From the IMG/VR virus record IMGVR_UViG_3300048023_000320, positions 1 through 21,987 of that record: a stretch of 21,987 nt of DNA; one strand, written 5' to 3'. Position numbers and translations under genes: made by a program. Of the stretch, positions 3,196 to 19,628 are shown piece by piece. The stretch comes from a virus. The notes beneath the pieces were generated by a model. It ran no database searches. It was not told the DNA's origin and saw only the letters and a program-made list of their open reading frames with translations. Numbering within the stretch: the first letter of the stretch is position 1; each line of letters opens with the position of its first letter.

Positions 3196-3351
3196 TGTAA
3201 GAGAATAAAAGTGTTGTTTACTCTCTGAACGTTCAGAATTTTTTAGTCAAAATTTTGTGGTCTATCCCACCGTCTAGACGGCAAAGGGTATCCGCGTACG
3301 GGCCGATGCCAATGCAAGGGAGGTCCGACTCTGAGGTGCCTCCCAAGCTGT
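3196..3351 (-). promoter_or_regulatory. Structured leader upstream of the capsid gene
   Basis: This 156-bp gap is the largest in the virion-gene block and has no ATG-initiated ORF. On the minus strand it holds a GGGAGG...CCTCCC stem (3344-3318) and three perfect palindromes: CCGTCTAGACGG (3270-3281), CAAAATTTTG (3248-3257) and CTGAACGTTCAG (3225-3236). The CCGT/ACGG hairpin can be lengthened by CCC/GGG pairing. T7 has its strongest promoter (phi10) and an RNA-processing hairpin in front of gene 10, so a promoter plus processing or stabilising structure is expected here. Function is inferred. The same DNA also carries a stop-free frame, described in the findings. Confidence 0.5.
3297..3313 (-). 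promoter_or_regulatory. Possible phage RNA-polymerase promoter before the capsid gene
   Basis: The minus strand reads ATTGGCATCGGCCCGTA. The promoter reported for the Syn5 RNA polymerase is ATTGGGCACCCGTAA, as I recall it. The two share ATTGG and CCCGTA, but the spacing differs by two or three bases. The position, about 100 bp before the capsid ATG, suits a phi10 equivalent. The resemblance is partial and I found no second copy in the window, so this is weak. Confidence 0.2.
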
Positions 3352-3546
3352 TTACATAAGACCTTTGACGCAACGCTTTTCAGCGCGGCACTGGGCTTTT
3401 ACATCACCACAATGTCCACAGCGCTTGAAGGGTTTGTTGTCGTCGAAGCCAAAGTTAACAGGAGTAGCTGTAGTCTTTTTGGACTGATGACGTGCACGCG
3501 TAGGTGCAGCTTTTTTAGCTATAGGTTTTACAGGCTTACTTGCCAT
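3352..3546 (-). CDS. Small Lys-rich protein with C-terminal Cys cluster, function unknown
   Basis: The product is 64 residues. Residues 1-30 are Lys/Ala/Thr/Arg-rich, low complexity and strongly basic. The C-terminal third carries CGHCGDVKAQC and then C, a CxxC-x6-C-x5-C arrangement that could bind zinc. The start ATG at 3546 follows the preceding gene's stop by two bases (TAATAATG), so translation is probably coupled. The basic tail suggests nucleic-acid binding, but that is only inference. It could also be a minor virion protein, since it lies directly before the capsid gene. Confidence 0.6.
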   Translation of the reverse strand: MASKPVKPIAKKAAPTRARHQSKKTTATPVNFGFDDNKPFKRCGHCGDVKAQCRAEKRCVKGLM

Positions 3547-3548
3547 TA

Positions 3549-3656
3549 TTACTTAGCGGAATTTTTGAGATAAGTAACGCCGCGATACTTCAGCTTGGCT
3601 TGCTTGACAGCAGCCTGTTGCTCTTTAACGCGAGCTTGCAGTTCAACGTTAGGCAT
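3549..3656 (-). CDS. 35-aa protein with a DUF4278-type YRGV-Y motif
   Basis: The short ORF reads MPNVELQARVKEQQAAVKQA and then KLKYRGVTYLKNSAK. The K-L-x-Y-R-G-V-x-Y core is the signature I associate with DUF4278, small proteins found in cyanobacteria and cyanophages, of unknown function. A good Shine-Dalgarno (GGAG, 7 nt spacer) precedes the ATG at 3656, which supports the start. It is followed within two bases by the 64-aa gene. The N-terminal half is probably one amphipathic helix. Confidence 0.65.
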   Translation of the reverse strand: MPNVELQARVKEQQAAVKQAKLKYRGVTYLKNSAK

Positions 3657-3673
3657 TGAAATACTCCGAAGTA

Positions 3674-3697
3674 CCTGATCCCCGTTCCATGATCAGG
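3674..3697 (-). other. Intercistronic stem-loop
   Basis: A perfect 7-bp stem, CCTGATC / GATCAGG, with a 10-nt loop starts three bases after the stop of the 59-aa gene and ends 18 bases before the next ATG. No T-run follows on the minus strand, so it is not a classical terminator. It could be an mRNA-stability or processing hairpin. Confidence 0.5.
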
Positions 3698-3699
3698 CG

Positions 3700-3879
3700 T
3701 CATGCGTCCTGCTGGTATGTCTCTTCTAGAACACACTTGTATAGCATGTTCTTCAAATACAGAAGAGCTTGCTGCTCAAATGCATCACCACCAGACCAGT
3801 TCTTGTGATGTAGATCTACTGATTTATAGATTAACTTGAGAGCTTCTGGTGGTAGTTCCAATTGATAGACATTTTCCAT
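3700..3879 (-). CDS. 59-aa acidic/helical protein, function unknown
   Basis: The ORF starts at ATG 3879 (MENVYQLELPPEALKLIYKS) and ends QQDA. It looks like two or three helices (ALKLIYKSVDLH; FEQQALLYLKNMLYKCVLEETYQ) with no signal peptide or metal motif. The arrangement resembles short conserved hypothetical proteins of cyanophages, but I cannot name a family. No Shine-Dalgarno is obvious. It follows the barrel-like protein by 19 bp in the same operon. Confidence 0.55.
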   Translation of the reverse strand: MENVYQLELPPEALKLIYKSVDLHHKNWSGGDAFEQQALLYLKNMLYKCVLEETYQQDA

Positions 3880-3898
3880 AAGGATGAACGTACGTTAC

Positions 3899-4273
3899 TT
3901 AGAATTTGTACTTAACGCCGGTCTTAGCACCAACGCCGAGACCTTCAATCTCCAAACCTTCAGACGTGATAGCAGAGACTTCGCCGTAAACGGAGAGCTT
4001 CTTAGTCACATCGACACCGAGACCGACTTTGCCAGAGGCAGCGCCGACTTGCTCAGCATCATCCGGAAAGCTGGCCGCTGGCCCTCCCTGGATATACCAG
4101 CTTGCGCTGTCACCCAGAGCGTTCTCGTAGCCCACGTGAGTCTCCAGCAGAGCACCTTGATAGTCCTCACCAGCCCAGCCTTGGTTGGCTTCGACATTCA
4201 GGTAAGGACCTGCCATAGCAGGCAGTGCAAAAGAAGACAGCGCGAGAGTGGAAAGAGCGATTTTGTTAAACAT
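3899..4273 (-). CDS. Small secreted, outer-membrane-barrel-like protein
   Basis: The product is 124 residues. Residues 1-21 form a classic signal peptide: basic start (MFNK), hydrophobic core (LSTLALSSFALP), and an AMA|G signal-peptidase I site. The mature part alternates Gly/aromatic/polar residues (YLNVEANQGW, THVGYENAL, SWYIQGGPAASF, GKVGLGVDV, LSVYGEV, GAKTGVKYKF) and ends in Phe, as outer-membrane beta-barrels do. At about 103 mature residues it is shorter than an eight-strand barrel such as OmpA or OmpX. I recall related porin-like proteins in other cyanophages, also without an assigned function. Export to the host envelope late in infection is inferred; a virion role is possible. Confidence 0.75.
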   Translation of the reverse strand: MFNKIALSTLALSSFALPAMAGPYLNVEANQGWAGEDYQGALLETHVGYENALGDSASWYIQGGPAASFPDDAEQVGAASGKVGLGVDVTKKLSVYGEVSAITSEGLEIEGLGVGAKTGVKYKF

Positions 4274-4277
4274 AATT

Positions 4278-4454
4278 TTATGCGATTTTTAGTTTAGAAT
4301 TCTTTTTCTTAGAAGCTTGTTTTTGAAAAGCATTTACGCTTTTCCCATATTTCTTATCTTCCCGATCAGCTTTCTCTCGGGCTTTCTTCATTGAATCGTA
4401 GTAACCATGTACTTGACCAGTTACTCCGTTCCATACCTTCCATGGTCCAGGCAT
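4278..4454 (-). CDS. 58-aa basic protein, function unknown
   Basis: The ORF begins [20 protein letters not shown] and has a charged helical middle (KKAREKADREDKKYG) and a Lys-rich tail. A perfect AGGAGG lies 9 nt before the ATG (4469-4464), and the stop of the preceding 22-aa gene overlaps the start as TAATG. Both support a real gene despite its size. The WKVWNGVTG...GYYDS pattern suggests a small compact domain shared among cyanophages, but I know no function. Confidence 0.6.
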   Translation of the reverse strand: MPGPWKVWNGVTGQVHGYYDSMKKAREKADREDKKYGKSVNAFQKQASKKKNSKLKIA

Positions 4455-4522
4455 TATTTTTTACCTCCTTTTTTAGGAGGACGTCCTTTTTGGGTACCGT
4501 AAGTACCTTTACCTTTAGGCAT
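4454..4522 (-). CDS. 22-aa Gly/Lys-rich basic peptide
   Basis: The peptide begins [20 protein letters not shown] and ends KK. The ATG lies inside the last codons of psbA (ATGCCTAA overlap), with a strong Shine-Dalgarno AGAGGAG at 4536-4530 and a 7-nt spacer, so it is very likely translated. Its own 3' end encodes the AGGAGG of the next gene. GRPPKK resembles an AT-hook core, so DNA or RNA binding is possible but unproven. Confidence 0.6.
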
Positions 4523-5573
4523 AGATCTTCTCCTCTGTAGTTGCTAAGTCGAGTGGGAAGTTATGAGCATTACGCTCGTGCATCACTTCCATGCCGAGAC
4601 CAGCTCGGTTCAGGATGTCAGCCCAGGTGTTGATGACTCTGCCATCCGCAGCCTGGATAGATTGGTTAAAGTTAAAGCCGTTCAGATTGAACGCCATGGT
4701 GCTTACGCCGAGTGCAGTAAACCAGATACCCACCACAGGCCAAGCAGCCAAGAAAAAGTGAAGACTACGTGAGTTGTTAAAAGATGCATATTGGAAGATC
4801 AAACGTCCGAAGTAACCATGAGCTGCAACGATGTTATAAGTCTCTTCCTCTTGTCCAAACTTGTAGCCATAGTTCTGGCTCATGTCTTCAGTCGTCTCAC
4901 GCACCAACGAACTGGTAACAAGAGAGCCGTGCATAGCAGAGAACAGAGAACCACCAAAGACACCAGCCACTCCCAACATGTGGAAGGGGTGCATAAGGAT
5001 GTTGTGTTCTGCTTGGAAGACAAGCATATAGTTGAAGGTACCTGAAATACCAAGTGGCATACCGTCAGAGAAGGATCCCTGACCGAAGGGGTACACCAGG
5101 AATACGGCCGTAGCCGCAGCAACAGGTGCTGAATATGCGACAAAGATCCAAGGCCTCATGCCTAATCGATAACTAAGTTCCCATTCGCGTCCCATGTAAG
5201 CGAAGACACCAATGAGAAAGTGGAAGACCACAAGTTGGTATGGTCCTCCGTTGTAGAGCCATTCGTCGAGACTGGCTGCTTCCCAGATGGAATAGAGATG
5301 TAGTCCGATTGCGTTGCTGGAGGGTACGACTGCTCCAGAGATGATGTTGTTTCCATAGAGAAGTGAACCAGCAACCGGTTCACGGATGCCGTCAATATCA
5401 ACAGGTGGTGCTGCAATGAATGCAACAAGAAAGCAAGTGGTAGCAACCAGTAGACAAGGAATCATGAGGACACCGAAGTGTCCTACATAAAGCCGGTTCT
5501 CAGTGCTGCTAACCCACTCACAATATCGATCCCAAATAGACTTGGGACGTTGTAGTGCGATAGTAGCTGCCAT
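4515..5573 (-). CDS. psbA: Photosystem II D1 protein (phage psbA)
   Basis: The product is a full-length D1 of 352 residues. In infected cells phage D1 replaces photodamaged host D1 in photosystem II thylakoid complexes. All diagnostic residues are at standard positions: Tyr161 (YZ), His198 (P680), His215 and His272 (iron), Ser264 (QB pocket), and manganese-cluster ligands Asp170, Glu189, His332, Glu333, Asp342 and Ala344. Position 130 is Glu, the high-light D1 form. After the Ala344 processing site only eight residues follow (TTEEKIYA), versus about 16 in host D1. The gene is intact with no intron. It is preceded by a 34-aa gene whose stop abuts the ATG and followed by overlapping small genes. 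I see no dedicated promoter. Confidence 0.99.
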
Positions 5574-5678
5574 TTAATTTTTAATTTTGATACAGTTGTT
5601 TGTACGTGTGGGAGTACCGCTCCCATGGGAAATCTTTGTGCCGGACTTTTTATACCCTTTCCAGCACTTTTTATCCAT
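5574..5678 (-). CDS. 34-aa basic Cys-containing peptide
   Basis: The ORF starts MDKKCWKGYKKSGTK and ends NNCIKIKN. KKCWKGYKK...NNC is a pattern I recall from very small cyanophage proteins; the role is unknown. The stop TAA directly abuts the psbA ATG, so it may set psbA translation by coupling, since psbA lacks a clear Shine-Dalgarno. Two conserved-looking Cys residues at 5 and 29 could pair or bind metal. An inverted repeat GGGAG-x5-CTCCC (5610-5624) lies within the gene, upstream of psbA. Confidence 0.55.
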   Translation of the reverse strand: MDKKCWKGYKKSGTKISHGSGTPTRTNNCIKIKN

Positions 5679-5685
5679 GCGGGTT

Positions 5686-5748
5686 TTAGTAGCCTTTTTT
5701 GCCTTTGCCACCTTTCTTTCCTCCGCAGGAACCTTTACCTTTATGCAT
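5686..5748 (-). CDS. 20-aa Gly/Lys-rich peptide
   Basis: The peptide begins MHKGKGSCGGKKGG and ends GY, composed almost entirely of Gly and Lys. The ATG overlaps the hli stop as TAATG. Its start resembles the MPKGKG peptide downstream of psbA, suggesting a related pair. There is no Shine-Dalgarno of its own, so expression would depend on re-initiation after hli. Because it is so short, coding status is uncertain. Confidence 0.4.
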   Translation of the reverse strand: MHKGKGSCGGKKGGKGKKGY

Positions 5749-5918
5749 TACCAAATACCAGGGATAAGTTGACCAGTCATGGCATACGCACCAAGCGCAG
5801 CCATCACGCCGAGCATGGCAAGCCTGCCATTGAGACGCTCGGCGCGCTCGTTATGTGGGATGGAGTTTTCGTCGATGTACATACGTGGTTCAGTGGGCCA
5901 GATTTGTGTGTCGTTCAT
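5748..5918 (-). CDS. hli: High-light-inducible protein (HLIP)
   Basis: The product is 56 residues with a hydrophilic N-terminus (MNDTQIWPTEPRMYIDEN) and one membrane helix containing ERAERLNGRLAMLGV. This is the chlorophyll-binding ExxNGRxAM motif of the Lhc/HLIP family (about residues 25-38), followed by a short aromatic tail ending PGIW. HLIPs sit in thylakoid membranes and protect photosystem II or help its assembly. The start overlaps the scaffold stop (TAATG) and the stop overlaps the next peptide, so the gene is embedded in the virion-assembly operon next to psbA. Confidence 0.95.
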   Translation of the reverse strand: MNDTQIWPTEPRMYIDENSIPHNERAERLNGRLAMLGVMAALGAYAMTGQLIPGIW

Positions 5919-6652
5919 TAAAAAGAAATCTCGGAGCGATCCAATTTATTAAGCACATCTTGCCGGTACGCTGGATCAGTCTCGTACCGGGAATCATTCA
6001 TTGCTTCAATAAGTTCCTGTTGACTGCGGAAGGTTGATTGAGCAGCTGCAGGTTTGCCTTGAATAAGGTCTCCGTCCTGTCCCATTGCGTCTGTATATCG
6101 ATAGTAAAGTGCTTGAAGTGCAAGGTTAATTTGTGCTGGGTTACCAGCATCAACAACTTGATCGTAGGCTTCAATCTCAGCATCTGTGAAATTGTCTTGA
6201 GCCCAACTAATTAAATCGTTGTACTGCTCTTCACCGCCAACAGCTTGATAAACACTGTTGAGTTCAGCCTCAGATAAGTCTTGAGTAACAGGAGCCATCT
6301 CCTGCATAGCATTGAATACATCAACACCGTTCATTTCAGAGAGTTGGTTGACTAGCTCTTCGGATAGCTCCCCGCTTTCTTGCATGGTTCGCTGGGCTTC
6401 AGCCAACCAATCGACTTCAGGAGCTTCTTCAGACTCTTCTTGCACATTGTCTTCTTCTTGTCCTCCAAGCTTCTTTTGCAGCTCAAGGTATGCAGCTTCT
6501 AGCTCTTCAGTATTTTTATACTTACCAGCCAGTCGCTGCTCTTGAGCTTCTATCATCTCTTCGCCAATGCGGAGAGACTCGGCTTCATCAGATACCTGAG
6601 ATTCCATAACCTCTGCAGGTACACTGTTATCCGATGTAAGAATTTCTGCCAT
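5918..6652 (-). CDS. Capsid assembly scaffold protein (T7 gp9-like)
   Basis: The product is 244 residues and strongly acidic, Glu/Gln-rich and mostly helical. It begins MAEILTSDNSVPAEV, with coiled-coil-like stretches around residues 25-70 (EEMIEAQEQRLAGKYKNTEE). The AGKYKNTEELEAAYLELQKKL segment is typical of T7-type scaffolds. Scaffold directs procapsid assembly and is released on DNA packaging. It lies between portal and capsid as in T7, with the photosynthesis insert between it and the capsid. The start overlaps the portal stop (TAATG) and its stop overlaps hli (TAATG). Confidence 0.88.
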   Translation of the reverse strand: MAEILTSDNSVPAEVMESQVSDEAESLRIGEEMIEAQEQRLAGKYKNTEELEAAYLELQKKLGGQEEDNVQEESEEAPEVDWLAEAQRTMQESGELSEELVNQLSEMNGVDVFNAMQEMAPVTQDLSEAELNSVYQAVGGEEQYNDLISWAQDNFTDAEIEAYDQVVDAGNPAQINLALQALYYRYTDAMGQDGDLIQGKPAAAQSTFRSQQELIEAMNDSRYETDPAYRQDVLNKLDRSEISF

Positions 6653-8220
6653 TATTGAATAGGTGGTTGTTCAGATTGTTCTTCTAGCTCTGCAGCTAGT
6701 GCAGGGTTCTTCGACGGATCATTGATTGGTGCAGACTGCATGGCTGCAGCTTGCTTAGTCATCTCCATCTGTTCCTGCATTTGCATGTTCTGCTGTTGTT
6801 CTTGCTGTTGCTGATCCATCGACTTAACGAGGTTCAGAACATCAATACCTTGTGCAGCAGCCAGACGTTTAATTGCTTCGTCTGGATTGAGATACTTCAT
6901 CATTGCCTCAGGACCAAGGGTCTGAGCAATAGTCATGATGAAAGAAGTCAGTGACTCACGGTCCTGACCTCTGCCAAGTGCATTGATACCAGCAACGATG
7001 GTTGGCTTAACAAGTTTCTTGGGGAACCTTGGCAACTCACCGCTGCGTTGCATTACAAGCAGCTTGCGATTGAGGTATGGAACAAGGAACTCAACGGTCA
7101 GCAGACTGAACAGTCCACCAAGTTGTTGTTCAAGTTCAAGTTGTGTAAGGCGTACCTCTTCAGCTGTAGTGCGTTCGCTTTGTCGAACAGTCAACACAAG
7201 GAATGCCTCAGCAATGCGACGCTCAAGCGTCTGCATCTGTTGCTGTGCTGTAGCAAAGTCAGCTGTCTTACCAACTTGTACAACAGCAACATCATCAGGT
7301 CGTCCCTGAATGATTGCACCGTTGCCTGCTTTGGCCAGCGTGGCTGGTTTAGTAGTCGATGAGGGTGACACTAGGAAGACTACTTTTGCAGCTGCTGCAG
7401 AGCCTTCTGTGATGGCCTGAGAGAGTGCTTCGAGTGACTTAAGATCACCGATAAACTCTTCTACACGACCTCTACCATAATTCTCACCATCTACCGAATT
7501 GAATCTTAGTACTAACCAGGGTGAAGTCTCCTTAGGAGCCTTACCTTCAGTACCAGGGATCCGTTTGTCGTACACCTCTTGGTGCCACAACCATCGGTTG
7601 TTCTCCAAGCGGCAGTGTGTATAGACTTCTACATCACCATTCTGGTTTGTTGATTCGTCATTGACCTTCAGTGGATCCTTGACAATATCAACAGGTAGAA
7701 GCTTTTTATTAATAAGTTCTTTGGTTACGATCTCAATTACGTTGCCGTTACCATCTCGCTCTATGACATAGCGGTTCAATGGGTAATGCTTAATCCCATC
7801 CTTACCCATAAACAGCAGAGCATTACCACCAACAACAAGATGTTTGATGGCTTGGTGCACAGTGACACGATCGCTTGACGCAGCGATAGAGTCCATCACC
7901 ATACGCTCAAGTTTGGCAAAGTTAAGGTCAAGTTCAGAACGAATCTCAGCAGGTATTTCAGTACCGAGCTGATCATCTGCAATCTGTAACTTAAAGAACG
8001 TAGTCTGAGGCGGCAGCAGAGCCAGCATCAACTTGGATGCAAGGGTAACTACCGCCTTAGCACCTACGGATTGCCAAGGTTGTGTAAGGGTTTTGTGGGA
8101 ACTCCGCATCTCATCACGTTGGATGAGATAAGGAAGAGTAAGCTCAGAGCATTTAACAGCTACATCAAGAAACGAGGTACGGCCACTGCTTAGTGCATCG
8201 TACCTAGCCTTTGCTGTCAC
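6652..8220 (-). CDS. Portal / head-tail connector (T7 gp8-like)
   Basis: The product is 522 residues, close to T7 gp8 (536). Recognisable gp8 signatures are TQPWQSVGAKAVVTLASKLM (about 46-65), LMLALLPPQTTFFKL, LVVGGNALLFM (about 127-137), NYGRGRVEEFIGDLKSLE (about 241-258) and the C-terminal INALGRGQD. The last about 60 residues are Gln/Met-rich, low complexity. The protein is the dodecameric ring through which DNA enters and leaves. The start is GTG, overlapping the preceding gene's stop as GTGA. The TAA stop overlaps the scaffold start. Confidence 0.95.
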   Translation of the reverse strand: MTAKARYDALSSGRTSFLDVAVKCSELTLPYLIQRDEMRSSHKTLTQPWQSVGAKAVVTLASKLMLALLPPQTTFFKLQIADDQLGTEIPAEIRSELDLNFAKLERMVMDSIAASSDRVTVHQAIKHLVVGGNALLFMGKDGIKHYPLNRYVIERDGNGNVIEIVTKELINKKLLPVDIVKDPLKVNDESTNQNGDVEVYTHCRLENNRWLWHQEVYDKRIPGTEGKAPKETSPWLVLRFNSVDGENYGRGRVEEFIGDLKSLEALSQAITEGSAAAAKVVFLVSPSSTTKPATLAKAGNGAIIQGRPDDVAVVQVGKTADFATAQQQMQTLERRIAEAFLVLTVRQSERTTAEEVRLTQLELEQQLGGLFSLLTVEFLVPYLNRKLLVMQRSGELPRFPKKLVKPTIVAGINALGRGQDRESLTSFIMTIAQTLGPEAMMKYLNPDEAIKRLAAAQGIDVLNLVKSMDQQQQEQQQNMQMQEQMEMTKQAAAMQSAPINDPSKNPALAAELEEQSEQPPIQ

Positions 8221-8725: not shown

Positions 8726-9437
8726 ATTGTGGGAGGTTTTGATTAGCGTGTTCGAAGAAGGCAGGCATTCTGGCTCTCTGTGTGAACAGAAGTTCAGGTG
8801 CTTTACCCTCGTACATCAGCCGATCACTAGAATCGAGCCAAAATTTTTGGTCTAAATATTTATCGGCACTCTTGCCTAGTGGTTGCATGACCCAGGCAAT
8901 AGTCGCCTTACGGAGTTTATCCAAAGACGGCGAAGCTTCCAGATTAAGCTCTCTACAAACCAAGCTATTTGTTGCGACGTGAACTTGCTCGTCTCTACTG
9001 ATGTCAGCGCTGACGGTTCGCATCCCTGCGTCACCAACAGCCCGCATGAAGGGTAGTAAGACGAAAAAGATTGCACGCTCAGCAACCATGGCTTTAAGGA
9101 GAGTGTGATCAGGATGTTCTGTCCACGCATCACGCAGTGCGATGGCTTCCCGCTCAGCTTTCGGATCAACGCCCCAAGCATCGGCGACATAACCCAAAGC
9201 CCTGTCGTGCTTAATCTCGTCTTGGACATTGCTCTCCAATATCTCACGCGAGAGAAGTGGAACTTCAGAGGCGAGCGCATCACGGATAAAATCTCCCACA
9301 GGTAGTTCCATATGTCGCAAGGCAAGTGCACGGCGCAGTGTCTCCTCCGCTCCCTCTTTGCAGTTGCCTTTGGTAGTAGCAACAGGTGTCCATGTCCTCT
9401 TGCGTTCTAGTAATTTTTGATAAGGATGTTGTCTCAT
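8718..9437 (-). CDS. nrdB: Ribonucleotide reductase class I small (beta) subunit, ferritin-like
   Basis: The product is 239 residues, short for an R2 protein (typically 320-380). A diiron-type ligand set is visible: Glu44 (HMELP), Glu74-x-x-His77 (DEIKH), Glu120 (VAERA), Glu150-x-x-His153 (DEQVH). The residue four after His77, where E. coli R2 has its radical Tyr122, is Leu81, so there is no tyrosine at that position. The partner large subunit has the class I Tyr-Tyr pair. I recall published work re-assigning the RNR of phage P-SSP7 from class II to class I after its overlooked small subunit was found; this gene fits that pattern. The start overlaps the large-subunit stop (ATGA). Confidence 0.82.
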   Translation of the reverse strand: MRQHPYQKLLERKRTWTPVATTKGNCKEGAEETLRRALALRHMELPVGDFIRDALASEVPLLSREILESNVQDEIKHDRALGYVADAWGVDPKAEREAIALRDAWTEHPDHTLLKAMVAERAIFFVLLPFMRAVGDAGMRTVSADISRDEQVHVATNSLVCRELNLEASPSLDKLRKATIAWVMQPLGKSADKYLDQKFWLDSSDRLMYEGKAPELLFTQRARMPAFFEHANQNLPQYA

Positions 9438-10804
9438 TCTTGACAGTCACAGGTTGGTTCTTTTTCATTCAGTAAATCTGCAAGATAGTCGTCTACGTCT
9501 TGTTGATCGAGAGCGGCATACGCATCAGATTTATCTTGTGTATCGCTCATAACTTGGAGCGAGTAATACAAGGAAGTCTGGGGACTCTTTAGCCACTCTT
9601 CGATAAAGGCGTTGTCATACGTGACAACATCACTCCAACTGTTGAAGCTATACCCGTGAAGAAGCCCAGTGCGATCGAGCAAGGTCATCATGCCGTCAGC
9701 CACACGCTTGTACGCGTCCCAGCCAACCTCTGATGCAATCTCTACATCGCCATAGTTATATGATTCGACACCAAAGGTGCCACTGTCCCGGTCTACGACA
9801 CGGGAGATAGGTGGTGCAATCTCAGGGGTGCAGGTGTAACCATCTACATCCTTGCTGCGGTAGCTACAGCTCGCAGTAGGAGCGATTGCGAAAGCTCGAT
9901 CCATCGTGTAACTGCGTGCGATGCTTGCAGCAGACTCGACGCCGGAAGCGAATTGAGAGACCAGCTCGAATGCAGGTGTCTGGACAATCTCGCCACCGTT
10001 GTATTGCTCAAGTGCACGTCCAAATTGTTCATAGCTAACGCCTACACGTCTAAGGAGATTTGCAAGTCCGAGCATTCCAAGGCCGACTTGTCGGTCCGTC
10101 TCGGGTGGGAGGTATTCACCACTCTCACCAACTCCAGTGGTTGCATGCAGTGCACACAATTCAGACATACCTTCGACGAAAGCTCGTGGTATGTCATCGA
10201 ACTCACAGGCTCCAAGATTAATATGCTGTAAGAGACAGGTTCCTCGGCTAGGCAAGTACACTTCGAGACAAACGTTGCCTCGGATACGGTTACCTTCTTT
10301 GTCATACTTTACTTTGTTGAGCCAAATGTCACCGGACTTAATGCCATTGAGTAGTTCCTCCTTAAAAGAACACGCCTCCCACCATTCATCTGTAATGTTG
10401 ATGCATCGCTTAGCCCAAGGAAGCTCATGACGTGGAGCTTGTAGAAACTCAAGAGCGTCAGGGTGGCACAAGTCCAGGTGCAACACCACAGCACCATTTT
10501 TATAGACTCCACCACGTCGGAGTACAGAGTTAAGGGTTGAATAGATTTGGCCAAATGAAACCGGGCCGCTAGCGACAAGTCCCTTTCCATTTTCAGTTCC
10601 TTTTGCTCGGAGTTCGGACAAGTGGATAGCTACGCCAGCTCCATTGCGGAGTGCATGTGATGCAAAACGCCAGCTAGCTTCGATACCTTCAGGACCCTCG
10701 CAAGAGTCATCAACTTTAAAAATTGTGCAGCTGACAGGCAACCGAGATGTTGGGTCATCGATCCAGCTTTGGACGCGACCAGTACGAGAAATAAGATTAG
10801 ACAT
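9434..10804 (-). CDS. nrdA: Ribonucleotide reductase large (alpha) subunit, compact class I type
   Basis: The product is 456 residues, much shorter than cellular class I alpha subunits, and lacks an ATP-cone. It makes dNTPs from NDPs. Visible catalytic residues are Cys26 (PVSC) and Cys190 as the redox pair, and Asn177-x-Cys179-x-Glu181 (NVCLE) as the active-site triad. Tyr413-Tyr414 (SLYYSLQ) is the radical-transfer dyad specific to class I. A C-terminal CDC (452-454) may replace the usual CxxxxC re-reducing tail. Such genes have been annotated as B12-dependent class II, but the Tyr pair and the adjacent ferritin-like subunit argue for class I. The start overlaps the MazG-like gene stop (TAATG). 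Confidence 0.9.
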   Translation of the reverse strand: MSNLISRTGRVQSWIDDPTSRLPVSCTIFKVDDSCEGPEGIEASWRFASHALRNGAGVAIHLSELRAKGTENGKGLVASGPVSFGQIYSTLNSVLRRGGVYKNGAVVLHLDLCHPDALEFLQAPRHELPWAKRCINITDEWWEACSFKEELLNGIKSGDIWLNKVKYDKEGNRIRGNVCLEVYLPSRGTCLLQHINLGACEFDDIPRAFVEGMSELCALHATTGVGESGEYLPPETDRQVGLGMLGLANLLRRVGVSYEQFGRALEQYNGGEIVQTPAFELVSQFASGVESAASIARSYTMDRAFAIAPTASCSYRSKDVDGYTCTPEIAPPISRVVDRDSGTFGVESYNYGDVEIASEVGWDAYKRVADGMMTLLDRTGLLHGYSFNSWSDVVTYDNAFIEEWLKSPQTSLYYSLQVMSDTQDKSDAYAALDQQDVDDYLADLLNEKEPTCDCQE

Positions 10805-16999: not shown

Positions 17000-19335
17000 T
17001 AACAGAAAAAATAAGTTGATTCAATTACCCTTTCGGGTTCAAGGTCGCCAATGATTGGCGGCTCAGTCTGTGCGCCGATTTGATCTGCCCACTCTTTTAA
17101 GTAGGTTCGATCAGCGAACAATTCCATATATGTTTGCCGGACAAGATCCGATAGCTGACCCATATCGACAGCACGAGCGAGCACCGAGTCGTGTATGAGG
17201 GCCAGCGGTGCTCTGAAACGTAAGGCTGTGAGATGTAGGAGGCTTGCATCTAATGAATGAATAAGGTTGGGAGCTGTAGCGTTTTTATGGTGTGCAGTAT
17301 CAACGGTGTCTGAATCTTCAGTTGCTACGTTTATCTCACATGTCCCAAGTAATTGTAATTGAATACGCTCAACTACCTTTTTCATTAGACGCTGAGTAAC
17401 AACAAAGCCAGACGGTGTTGTCCATGTCAACTCTGTTGCCCCACGTTTAATAGCAGCTGCTACCTCTGACTCAATCCACTTCATAACCTTCATAGGGCCA
17501 GGAACGATGACATCCATGGCTTCACGTACCGCTTTGACTGTTGCAGTTAAATCATCCTTCTCAATCTCCACACCCTTTTCTTTAAGTGCGTCACGTATGT
17601 ACGAACGGTTGGAAAAAGGTTTTGAATTGTAAGGAACAGTCATCACTGTTTTTTTGGTAGTTTTCCTGTCCATATGAGGACGGATAACAACAGGACATTT
17701 AGGTTCAGCTTCTACAGCTATTACTTTGTATGCGTCTTGTGGTCGGTCACTCGGTAAGACATTAACGAGCCGAGCAGTTGATGCGTCTTTTGCAAGACCA
17801 GCCAGGATCTGCAGACCACTACAGGTCGCATCCACAGCAACAGGCAAAGCAGTGTGAGAGCGATCACACTCAATAACACAATGATAATACTCATCACATG
17901 CAGCTAGGAAAGTCCAAGGTTCATCTGCATCAGCCCAGTCAGAGAGGTTTCTGATTGGATCAGTGGCAACTCTTTTGATTCGATCTAGGTTGTTCTTGAC
18001 CCATTCTTGCCTCTCCATCATTGTTGCTTTATCCAGCCCAGCCGTAGTGGCGCACTGGAATGCCAGCCATCCCTCTGCATCTGGTGTCACATATGCTTGC
18101 CCATAAAAGCGAAGCAAACTCTTACCAAAGTCAGTATCTTGTGGAGATAAGAATGTAGCAATTGGGTAAATCCTTCCGCGATAGTCGAAACTGTATGAAT
18201 GGAAGAACTTCTTTTTGTCTTTGAATATCTTTACTGCATTCATCGTCATCCGTGTACGACACGAACGTTGATATGCTTGAGCATTGATATTCATCACTTC
18301 TGCTGCCTTTCGCCTGTATTCCTTGCGGGACTCTTTATTGTCTGCAATGTCGAATGGCTTTGGCGGCAGAGGCAATTCACATATAGGGACAAACTTACCA
18401 ACCTCAATACCTTTCTCCATCAAGGTCTCTGCGACTTTGACTGTGAAAGGATTGAGGGTGTACGCCACCTTCTGAATCTGGTTCAGAAAGGCGATCGGTG
18501 TTTCTCCCTGTATACGGCACTGACCGCGCCTGACCATATCGTGACCGCGCATCACCTCATTTAGTAGGTATCCGCCAGCACGTTCATTGGTCCAATCATT
18601 GGGCTCGATCAGCATTGGCCAGGCACATGGGCTGAACAATTCAGCCGTGCCCATAATCTGGTCCTTTTGATCCATGAACACCTTGGTTGGCATTACATAG
18701 GTGTTTGTCTTGCGTCCCTCTCTACGTAGTTCCTTATCGAACCACCCCGATGCTTGGCATATGCAATCGAGTAACCACGTGCCCAGTCGGATGCGATTTG
18801 CGCGTCCCCATGCTTGCCAGTGCGGCACGTCCGCTTTGTTCATCAGGGTGGTAATCACCTTGACTTTTTGGTGCGTGCCTATGGATCTGTGCCAGTAGTT
18901 TTCCTTGAGCGTGTGCAGTAACCCCGGCACATTGCGCTCGTAATGACGCATCAACAGCTCATTTTCAACTGCTGTGCCTATGGCATCAGTCACGTTCTGC
19001 AGCTGAGATGAAGCCTTTTTCGGGCTGAATACCTTATCCATCGTCACTTTGGAAGCGATGGCTGCGGCTGCCTCAGGCTCAAGATCTGCCAAGTACTGGC
19101 GTATCTCTTTGAACGCAACGCCTGTGCGTCCCTCGTGTATGCGGTTGGCTGTATCGACGATGCGATCAACCACTAATGGGATCAACGTTTGGACTGATGC
19201 GACGCCATATACGGCTGCTGACGCGTACTCCTTTTCCTCCAGCTTCCTGGTATTACGACGCAGCTCCTTCAAGCCTTGTCGTATTTGTTCACGTTCGAGT
19301 TGGATTTGCTCATCAATTTGAGCGGGTGTCGCCAT
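16999..19335 (-). CDS. Single-subunit DNA-directed RNA polymerase (T7 gp1-like)
   Basis: The product is 778 residues from ATG 19335; a GTG at 19368 would add 11 residues. Catalytic motifs are intact: Asp502 in AVDATCSGLQILAG (T7 Asp537), Lys561 and Tyr569 in the DRKTTKKTVMTVPYNS block (T7 Lys631 and Tyr639), and the palm Asp in LALIHDSVLARA (T7 Asp812). It is shorter than T7 RNA polymerase (883), mostly in the N-terminal promoter-binding domain. The C-terminus reads YFFC instead of the T7 FAFA foot. The enzyme should transcribe the phage middle and late genes. It is preceded by a hairpin and the attachment site. Confidence 0.97.
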   Translation of the reverse strand: MATPAQIDEQIQLEREQIRQGLKELRRNTRKLEEKEYASAAVYGVASVQTLIPLVVDRIVDTANRIHEGRTGVAFKEIRQYLADLEPEAAAAIASKVTMDKVFSPKKASSQLQNVTDAIGTAVENELLMRHYERNVPGLLHTLKENYWHRSIGTHQKVKVITTLMNKADVPHWQAWGRANRIRLGTWLLDCICQASGWFDKELRREGRKTNTYVMPTKVFMDQKDQIMGTAELFSPCAWPMLIEPNDWTNERAGGYLLNEVMRGHDMVRRGQCRIQGETPIAFLNQIQKVAYTLNPFTVKVAETLMEKGIEVGKFVPICELPLPPKPFDIADNKESRKEYRRKAAEVMNINAQAYQRSCRTRMTMNAVKIFKDKKKFFHSYSFDYRGRIYPIATFLSPQDTDFGKSLLRFYGQAYVTPDAEGWLAFQCATTAGLDKATMMERQEWVKNNLDRIKRVATDPIRNLSDWADADEPWTFLAACDEYYHCVIECDRSHTALPVAVDATCSGLQILAGLAKDASTARLVNVLPSDRPQDAYKVIAVEAEPKCPVVIRPHMDRKTTKKTVMTVPYNSKPFSNRSYIRDALKEKGVEIEKDDLTATVKAVREAMDVIVPGPMKVMKWIESEVAAAIKRGATELTWTTPSGFVVTQRLMKKVVERIQLQLLGTCEINVATEDSDTVDTAHHKNATAPNLIHSLDASLLHLTALRFRAPLALIHDSVLARAVDMGQLSDLVRQTYMELFADRTYLKEWADQIGAQTEPPIIGDLEPERVIESTYFFC

Positions 19336-19421
19336 ATTTTGTAGTGATTGATACGTGGTTACGCGCACACGTTTCTTGGCTCACGCCTTTCCACATGTGC
19401 AAGTGTGTGAGTATTAAGTAA

Positions 19422-19439
19422 GGGCCAGGCTTTTGGCCC
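19422..19439 (-). terminator. Possible terminator hairpin between attachment site and RNA polymerase
   Basis: On the minus strand GGGCCA-AAAGCC-TGGCCC forms a 6-bp GC-rich stem with a 6-nt loop, followed by TTACTTAAT, only partly T-rich. It could end transcripts from integrase or the tRNA-like core, or be a leader structure of the RNA polymerase mRNA. The T-tract is weak. Confidence 0.4.
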
Positions 19440-19474
19440 GACCCTTGCAGATGTGAGAGTTAGTTTCTGCTACG

Positions 19475-19522
19475 CACGCACAACCCTCAAACGTGCGTGT
19501 CTACCAATTCCACCACATCCGC
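19475..19522 (-). other. Putative phage attachment site (attP) containing the 5' half of tRNA-Leu(GAG)
   Basis: On the minus strand, 19522-19484 reads as a clean tRNA-Leu 5' half: acceptor GCGGATG, then TG, D-arm GTG...GGTAGACAC, and anticodon stem and loop CACGT-TTGAGGG with anticodon GAG. After the loop the sequence departs from a tRNA: there is no variable arm, T-stem or T-loop. Thus it is a gene fragment, not a working tRNA. The loop is flanked by a perfect inverted repeat CACGCAC / GTGCGTG (19499-19493 and 19481-19475), as expected for integrase core-binding sites around the crossover. I recall that P-SSP7 carries a 42-bp match to its host tRNA-Leu next to int. The location 107 bp downstream of int fits. 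Confidence 0.8.
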
Positions 19523-19628
19523 TAGTGGTACCAAGGGTTTTCAGCGATTGACTCACCAATTTGGGGAGGGCTGACAGGCTCTTGGCAAGGAGGAACGGTA
19601 GCAGAGGGAAGTATTAGTTACGCTCGCT
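19523..19628. other. Non-coding spacer between integrase and attachment core
   Basis: This 106-bp stretch has no supportable gene, promoter or hairpin with a T-tract. It lies where arm-type integrase sites could be, but I saw no convincing repeated short motif. Confidence 0.4.

Follow-up and report, generated by a model that had tools for sequence, protein, structure and literature searches.

A tRNA-Leu(GAG) half beside an integrase gene as the probable attachment site of a T7-like cyanophage

Why does a phage genome carry the first half of a tRNA-Leu gene, ending with the anticodon loop, between its integrase and RNA polymerase genes? The window, meaning the whole stretch of DNA analysed here, is a virus record of 21,987 bases and represents a fragment of a T7-like cyanophage with all genes on the minus strand. 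It encodes psbA, hli, ribonucleotide reductase, portal, head protein, primase/helicase, ssb, and a T7-like RNA polymerase; assignment to the T7-like cyanophages (Autographiviridae) is based on the polymerase, the gp2.5-like ssb, the primase/helicase, the portal (head-tail adaptor), and the major head protein. The ribonucleotide reductase (9434-10804, 456 aa) matches large-subunit families only in parts and may be a shortened cyanophage form. The region of interest contains, in minus-strand order:

21063-20689, minus strand: small transcriptional regulator upstream of int (phrog_9665, 1.7e-26)
20696-19629, minus strand: tyrosine integrase, 355 aa (PF00589, 4.2e-15; phrog_1, 4.6e-40)
19522-19484, minus strand: tRNA-Leu(GAG) nts 1-39 (5' half), identity block of the proposed attP core, matched exactly at no fewer than 120 genomic loci
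19490-19484, minus strand: anticodon loop TTGAGGG, nts 33-39, right end of phage/host identity (ARAGORN anticodon position 35 in host genes)
19368-16999, minus strand: T7-like RNA polymerase downstream of the proposed attP (PF00940, 4.2e-67; phrog_414, 2.4e-220); an internal ATG near 19335 may be its start

The small regulator has the position of the MarR-like gp0.7 of P-SSP7 and is likewise placed in S-CBP1/2. The integrase has the PF00589 domain and the R-K-H-R-H-Y set of tyrosine recombinases (R156, K191, H254, R257, H280, and Y289), which is invariant in an alignment of seven integrases including those of P-SSP7 and S-TIP37. The half tRNA is very probably the attP of this phage, at which the tyrosine integrase recombines with the host tRNA-Leu(GAG) gene.

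The half tRNA and its host target

The minus strand from 19522 to 19484 reads GCGGATGTGGTGGAATTGGTAGACACGCACGTTTGAGGG and is present as a single copy in the window. Because neither ARAGORN nor Rfam calls a tRNA in the window, the 5' half is not followed by a 3' half, which agrees with the sequence-only reading; the complete cloverleaf of a functional tRNA gene is absent. The exact 39-mer is found in at least 120 genome-contig stretches, nearly all of them from Synechococcus, Cyanobium, or Prochlorococcus. Among the matches listed, phage/host identity stops in all host loci at nt 39, where the anticodon loop ends, and the sole 40-nt run is in a viral contig. Upstream, identity is limited to nt 1 or, in some host loci, to one base earlier. 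An exact match of 39 nt to a host tRNA is not due to chance. The host genes tested with the 39-mer are complete tRNA-Leu(gag) genes according to ARAGORN, and tRNA-Leu(GAG) is single-copy in 8/8 host genomes checked.

An attachment site for a host tRNA-Leu(GAG) had been proposed from the sequence alone, with the expectation that an exact host match of 35-45 bp would end in the anticodon arm, and with the provision that a complete tRNA at this locus or a lack of matching host genes would speak against it. The matches at 120 or more host loci, all ending at nt 39, bear out this proposal; matching host genes exist and the window has no complete tRNA. When the junctions are assembled in silico, attR, which combines the 5' half from the phage with the 3' half from the host, is called as a complete tRNA-Leu(gag), while attL and attP are not. 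No occupied tRNA-Leu(GAG) site was found among the fetched host loci carrying the 39-mer, which counts against the attP explanation.

Related attachment sites and an integrated relative

An alignment search of IMG/VR yielded 80 further int loci, and a 38-mer search yielded five contigs with the same GAG half. The 90 attPs of the survey all have nts 1-39 of a tRNA-Leu: CAG in 48, UAA in 27, UAG in 8, GAG in 6, and CAA in 1. Exact host gene matches were obtained for the GAG, CAG, UAG, and CAA halves. The int gene is directly upstream on the same strand in 87/90, and the next gene is the RNA polymerase in 72 and ssb in 15. The window conforms to this arrangement: its int gene is followed directly by 39 bp that match the 5' half of a host tRNA-Leu.

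GAG halves are confined to the window and five uncultured contigs. None was found in named phages; those found have CAG, UAA, or CAA halves, and the named-phage sequences closest to the GAG half are CAG halves with 86% identity. The closest named integrases are from P-SSP7 (37.5% identity) and S-TIP37 (31.5%), a range of 31-39% for the two phages. A single-sequence search of IMG/VR gave no close protein relatives of the integrase, and the phage collection contains no close DNA relatives of the int region. The window integrase is at most 40% identical to other integrases and is on a long, unplaced tree branch, and both of these observations count against the attP explanation. The other GAG integrases form two branches joining each other, for which the tree program warns of a possible long-branch artefact.

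Site-specific integration at tRNA-Leu has been demonstrated experimentally for S-TIP37 and P-SSP7, and for S-TIP37 it requires both int and attP (PMC8776855). This kind of attP is therefore already known, while tRNA-Leu(GAG) appears to be a new target. The same source describes four attP groups of 39 bp across 11 genomes, beside which GAG is probably a fifth. Like the window, S-TIP37 and P-SSP7 have a tyrosine integrase preceded by a small regulator, and after int come, on the same strand, 39 nt equal to the 5' half of a host tRNA-Leu and then the RNA polymerase; by analogy, the phage of the window would itself integrate. The target differs, being tRNA-Leu(GAG) in the window but CAG in S-TIP37 and UAA in P-SSP7. 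More distant parallels exist in the islands mapped by Islander, of which 159 of 3919 have a 5' tRNA fragment and 3760 a 3' fragment (PMC4383910). The 5'-fragment islands share with the window the type of fragment and the anticodon-loop crossover; they are a minority in that collection, whereas every T7-like cyanophage attP found here is of this type.

The T7-like Pseudomonas phage LUZ100, which has temperate features, also has a lysogeny module with an integrase before the RNA polymerase, and a tRNA-Leu beside int (PMC10134795). In LUZ100, however, the tRNA-Leu is upstream of int and was called as a gene, unlike the downstream half in the window, and its integrase has about 24% similarity to that of the window. 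The LUZ100 tRNA-Leu has been read as a remnant (PMC10134795), and T7-like cyanophages behave lytically, with stable lysogens not obtained (PMC8776855). Both observations would fit a dead relic, left by a past integration or by tRNA capture through imprecise excision, at a site no longer used. This is improbable given that the six GAG halves show no differences across 39 nt although the flanks on both sides have diverged, that the window integrase retains its catalytic residues, that integration at sister sites has been shown (PMC8776855), and that a natural prophage exists.

This prophage is in Synechococcus sp. AG-670-B23, a genome that no paper found mentions by name. Contig C12 (52,265 bp; of the genome holding locus L048) has a tRNA-Leu(CAG) half with a phage-type hairpin after it, and at its other end:

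3750-2707 of contig C12, minus strand: int, followed by the complete tRNA-Leu(CAG)
2610-2526 of contig C12: complete tRNA-Leu(CAG), after int
6423-3979 of contig C12: T7-like polymerase

Terminase, scaffold, head protein, portal, nozzle, primase/helicase, and DNA polymerase are also encoded. The 5' half at 48124 is 45.5 kb from the int/tRNA-Leu(CAG) end, with phage genes between and host murA and an aminotransferase beyond it; murA adjoins an uninterrupted tRNA-Leu(CAG) in 11 related genomes. The attR-side flank is host-like, with 92-94% matches in relatives; synteny was checked for the murA flank only, which counts against the attP explanation. The contig thus apparently holds a complete 45.5-kb T7-like prophage at tRNA-Leu(CAG), from about 2.6 to 48.1 kb (L257 2526-6423, L258 8087-9577) of a single-cell assembly. 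An extra C is present in the D loop of the rebuilt tRNA at attR but missing from the displaced host half at attL. Since the junctions share the sequence from just past this C to nt 43, the crossover occurred between about nt 17 and 43, and the presence of the phage 5' half in the rebuilt tRNA supports the integration model. The earlier suggestion of a crossover in or near the anticodon loop fits both this interval and the nt-39 boundary. With the support of this prophage, we infer that the loop at 19484-19490 is the most likely crossover interval in the window.

Other host genomes contain further traces of such phages. Contig C48 of the same single-cell genome (G005, 3340-7803) has a second integrase and pieces of a T7-like polymerase, perhaps from a second phage or remnant. 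Strong matches to T7-like cyanophage integrases on two large contigs, with split T7-like polymerase genes nearby, look like decayed prophages (L264, G040:C1:925086-925898; L266, G127:C1:534401-535198). No tRNA-Leu was found beside int in the 3-4 kb fetched at these and other host integrase/polymerase matches. In another host genome (L268, G363:C25), a related integrase is directly upstream of a complete tRNA-Leu(UAA), forming an attR-like junction of some element.

Repeats and transcription signals around the core

The core is surrounded by the following elements, for which the named functions are predicted:

19493-19499, minus strand: left arm of a 7-bp inverted repeat (tRNA nts 24-30), GTGCGTG on the plus strand
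19475-19481, minus strand: right arm of the 7-bp inverted repeat (phage flank, positions 42-48), CACGCAC on the plus strand
19601-19619, minus strand: candidate left arm-type repeat, AACTAATACTTCCCTCTGC, 19-nt direct repeat, 74%
19447-19465, minus strand: candidate right arm-type repeat, AACTAACTCTCACATCTGC, 19-nt direct repeat, 74%
19595-19603, minus strand: extended -10 promoter-like element TGCTACCGT upstream of the half tRNA, by consensus match
19420-19446, minus strand: terminator-like hairpin AAGGGTCGGGCC AAAA GCCTGGCCCTT with a weak T tail, conserved in position and form

The perfect inverted repeat CACGCAC/GTGCGTG is located exactly where it was first described. Its 11-nt spacer (19482-19492) includes the 7-nt anticodon loop and shares its centre, the middle base of the anticodon, with the anticodon stem. 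The sequence-only reading considered this repeat to be the core-site pair of the integrase, conserved since the phage flank had kept pairing with the tRNA stem. We consider this doubtful. While the exact centring on the anticodon is suggestive, and shuffling the window's right flank gives a loop-centred perfect repeat of at least 7 bp in 0.3% of cases, one such case across 42 non-redundant attPs is not very improbable (about 12% by our estimate). In the other 41, the best loop-centred perfect repeat is at most 4 bp, and the relatives with the same half have only 2-4 bp. Symmetric core sites are thus not conserved around the crossover in related attPs, and the perfect 7-bp repeat, which S-TIP37 and P-SSP7 do not share, is idiosyncratic to the window rather than a general architecture. 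Right flanks are complementary to the stem at 3.55/9 positions compared with 2.15 expected from sequence further downstream, a weak general excess in keeping with the core-site interpretation. However, flanks swapped between phages fit as well as native ones (permutation p = 0.75-0.93), so the complementarity does not depend on the isoacceptor. Continued pairing of the flank with its own tRNA stem is unsupported, and tracking of each isoacceptor's stem by the right flank is rejected. Weak dyad symmetry does exist, as expected of recombinase core sites.

The core-site interpretation also draws on repeats of the GTGCG type, which are enriched in GAG attPs (2.0 per attP in five, compared with 0.31 in shuffles) and absent or rare in the other groups (0.00-0.14). 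Since the right arm of the window's inverted repeat is one of these, it may still be an integrase-binding motif. S-TIP37 and P-SSP7 have CTAGCG-type repeats in place of GTGCG, and CTAGCG/CTAACG motifs at fixed places in the non-GAG groups are candidate arm sites. Arm repeats copy the core half-site in GAG (CGTGCG) and CAG (CTAGCG) attPs but not in UAA or UAG attPs, so such copying is not a general rule.

A promoter-like sequence, TGnTAnnnT, is present within -85 to -15 of the half in 33/42 attPs, compared with 6.3% of shuffles, and two control regions show no enrichment. A terminator-like hairpin starts 28-44 nt past nt 39 in 40/42 non-redundant attPs, compared with 0.95% of shuffles; for the window hairpin (19446-19420), a stricter general terminator scan lists none in the window. 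The putative promoter and terminator activities are consensus-type calls, which is counted against the attP explanation. Experimental mapping in LUZ100 placed a terminator immediately after int, with read-through into the polymerase gene proposed as a point of control (PMC10134795).

Many attPs (for example L184, L186, and L201) also have a short hairpin at about -35 to -10 before the half tRNA, varying in sequence with pairing kept (CTCGGG..CCCGAG, CTGGGC..GCCCAG) and followed by GARATCCC; it is possibly a tRNA leader. Covariation is visible by eye in many CAG attPs, but it is not claimed here because automatic alignment missed the hairpin and RNAalifold gave no support.

A promoter-like element before the half and a hairpin after it could also delimit a small transcript, with the half acting as an RNA or gene fragment (e.g., a tRNA-derived regulator or decoy) and not as an attachment site. 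This is very improbable: the half is always beside int, five isoacceptors are used, the boundary is always nt 39, and S-TIP37 integration requires attP (PMC8776855).

A model of integration and its meaning

Several parts of the model of the half as attP can be read directly from sequence, namely the half with its exact end point, the genes targeted in hosts, the order of the phage genes, the flanking elements conserved among attPs, and a relative found naturally integrated with its two junctions. The integrase would recombine attP (nts 1-39) with the host tRNA-Leu(GAG) near the anticodon loop. As attP contains tRNA nts 1-39, this would rebuild the tRNA at one junction, attR, from the phage 5' half and the host 3' half just downstream of int; at attL, the host promoter and the displaced host 5' half would be followed by the phage right flank. 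Because the phage carries the 5' half, the host promoter would be displaced and the rebuilt tRNA would have to be expressed from phage sequence, with transcription either starting at the promoter-like element between int and attP or continuing through from int; the sequence-only reading did not draw this consequence. A core site would hardly need nts 1-23, and their conservation would fit selection for a working rebuilt tRNA. The hairpin to the right of the core would stop transcription arriving from the host tRNA promoter in the integrated state or from int in the free phage, and would thereby keep it out of the RNA polymerase gene. Read-through from the host tRNA promoter as a means of switching on the phage polymerase after integration was also considered, but the hairpin conserved after attP, ahead of the next gene, makes this less likely.

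A further, tentative proposal is that attP is a built-in switch. The crossover would divide the phage transcription unit, leaving the early promoter and int on one side and the RNA polymerase gene on the other, and integration alone would thus disconnect the polymerase from that promoter; the hairpin would insulate the polymerase gene from the host tRNA promoter, and the phage promoter and leader would keep the rebuilt, single-copy tRNA-Leu alive.

With tRNA-Leu(GAG) included among the targets of T7-like cyanophages, each of five picocyanobacterial leucine isoacceptors (GAG, CAG, UAG, UAA, and CAA) is targeted by some phage in the survey. The survey also gives a common attP anatomy of promoter-like element, tRNA nts 1-39, and hairpin, which leads to testable predictions on the survival of the host tRNA on integration and on the silence of the polymerase. 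The published view is that intact T7-like cyanophage prophages are absent, single-cell genomes included (PMC8776855), and the AG-670-B23 prophage bears on whether these phages form lysogens. If the proposed switch is true, then T7-like cyanophages would have a real, if rare, dormant state, as that prophage suggests.
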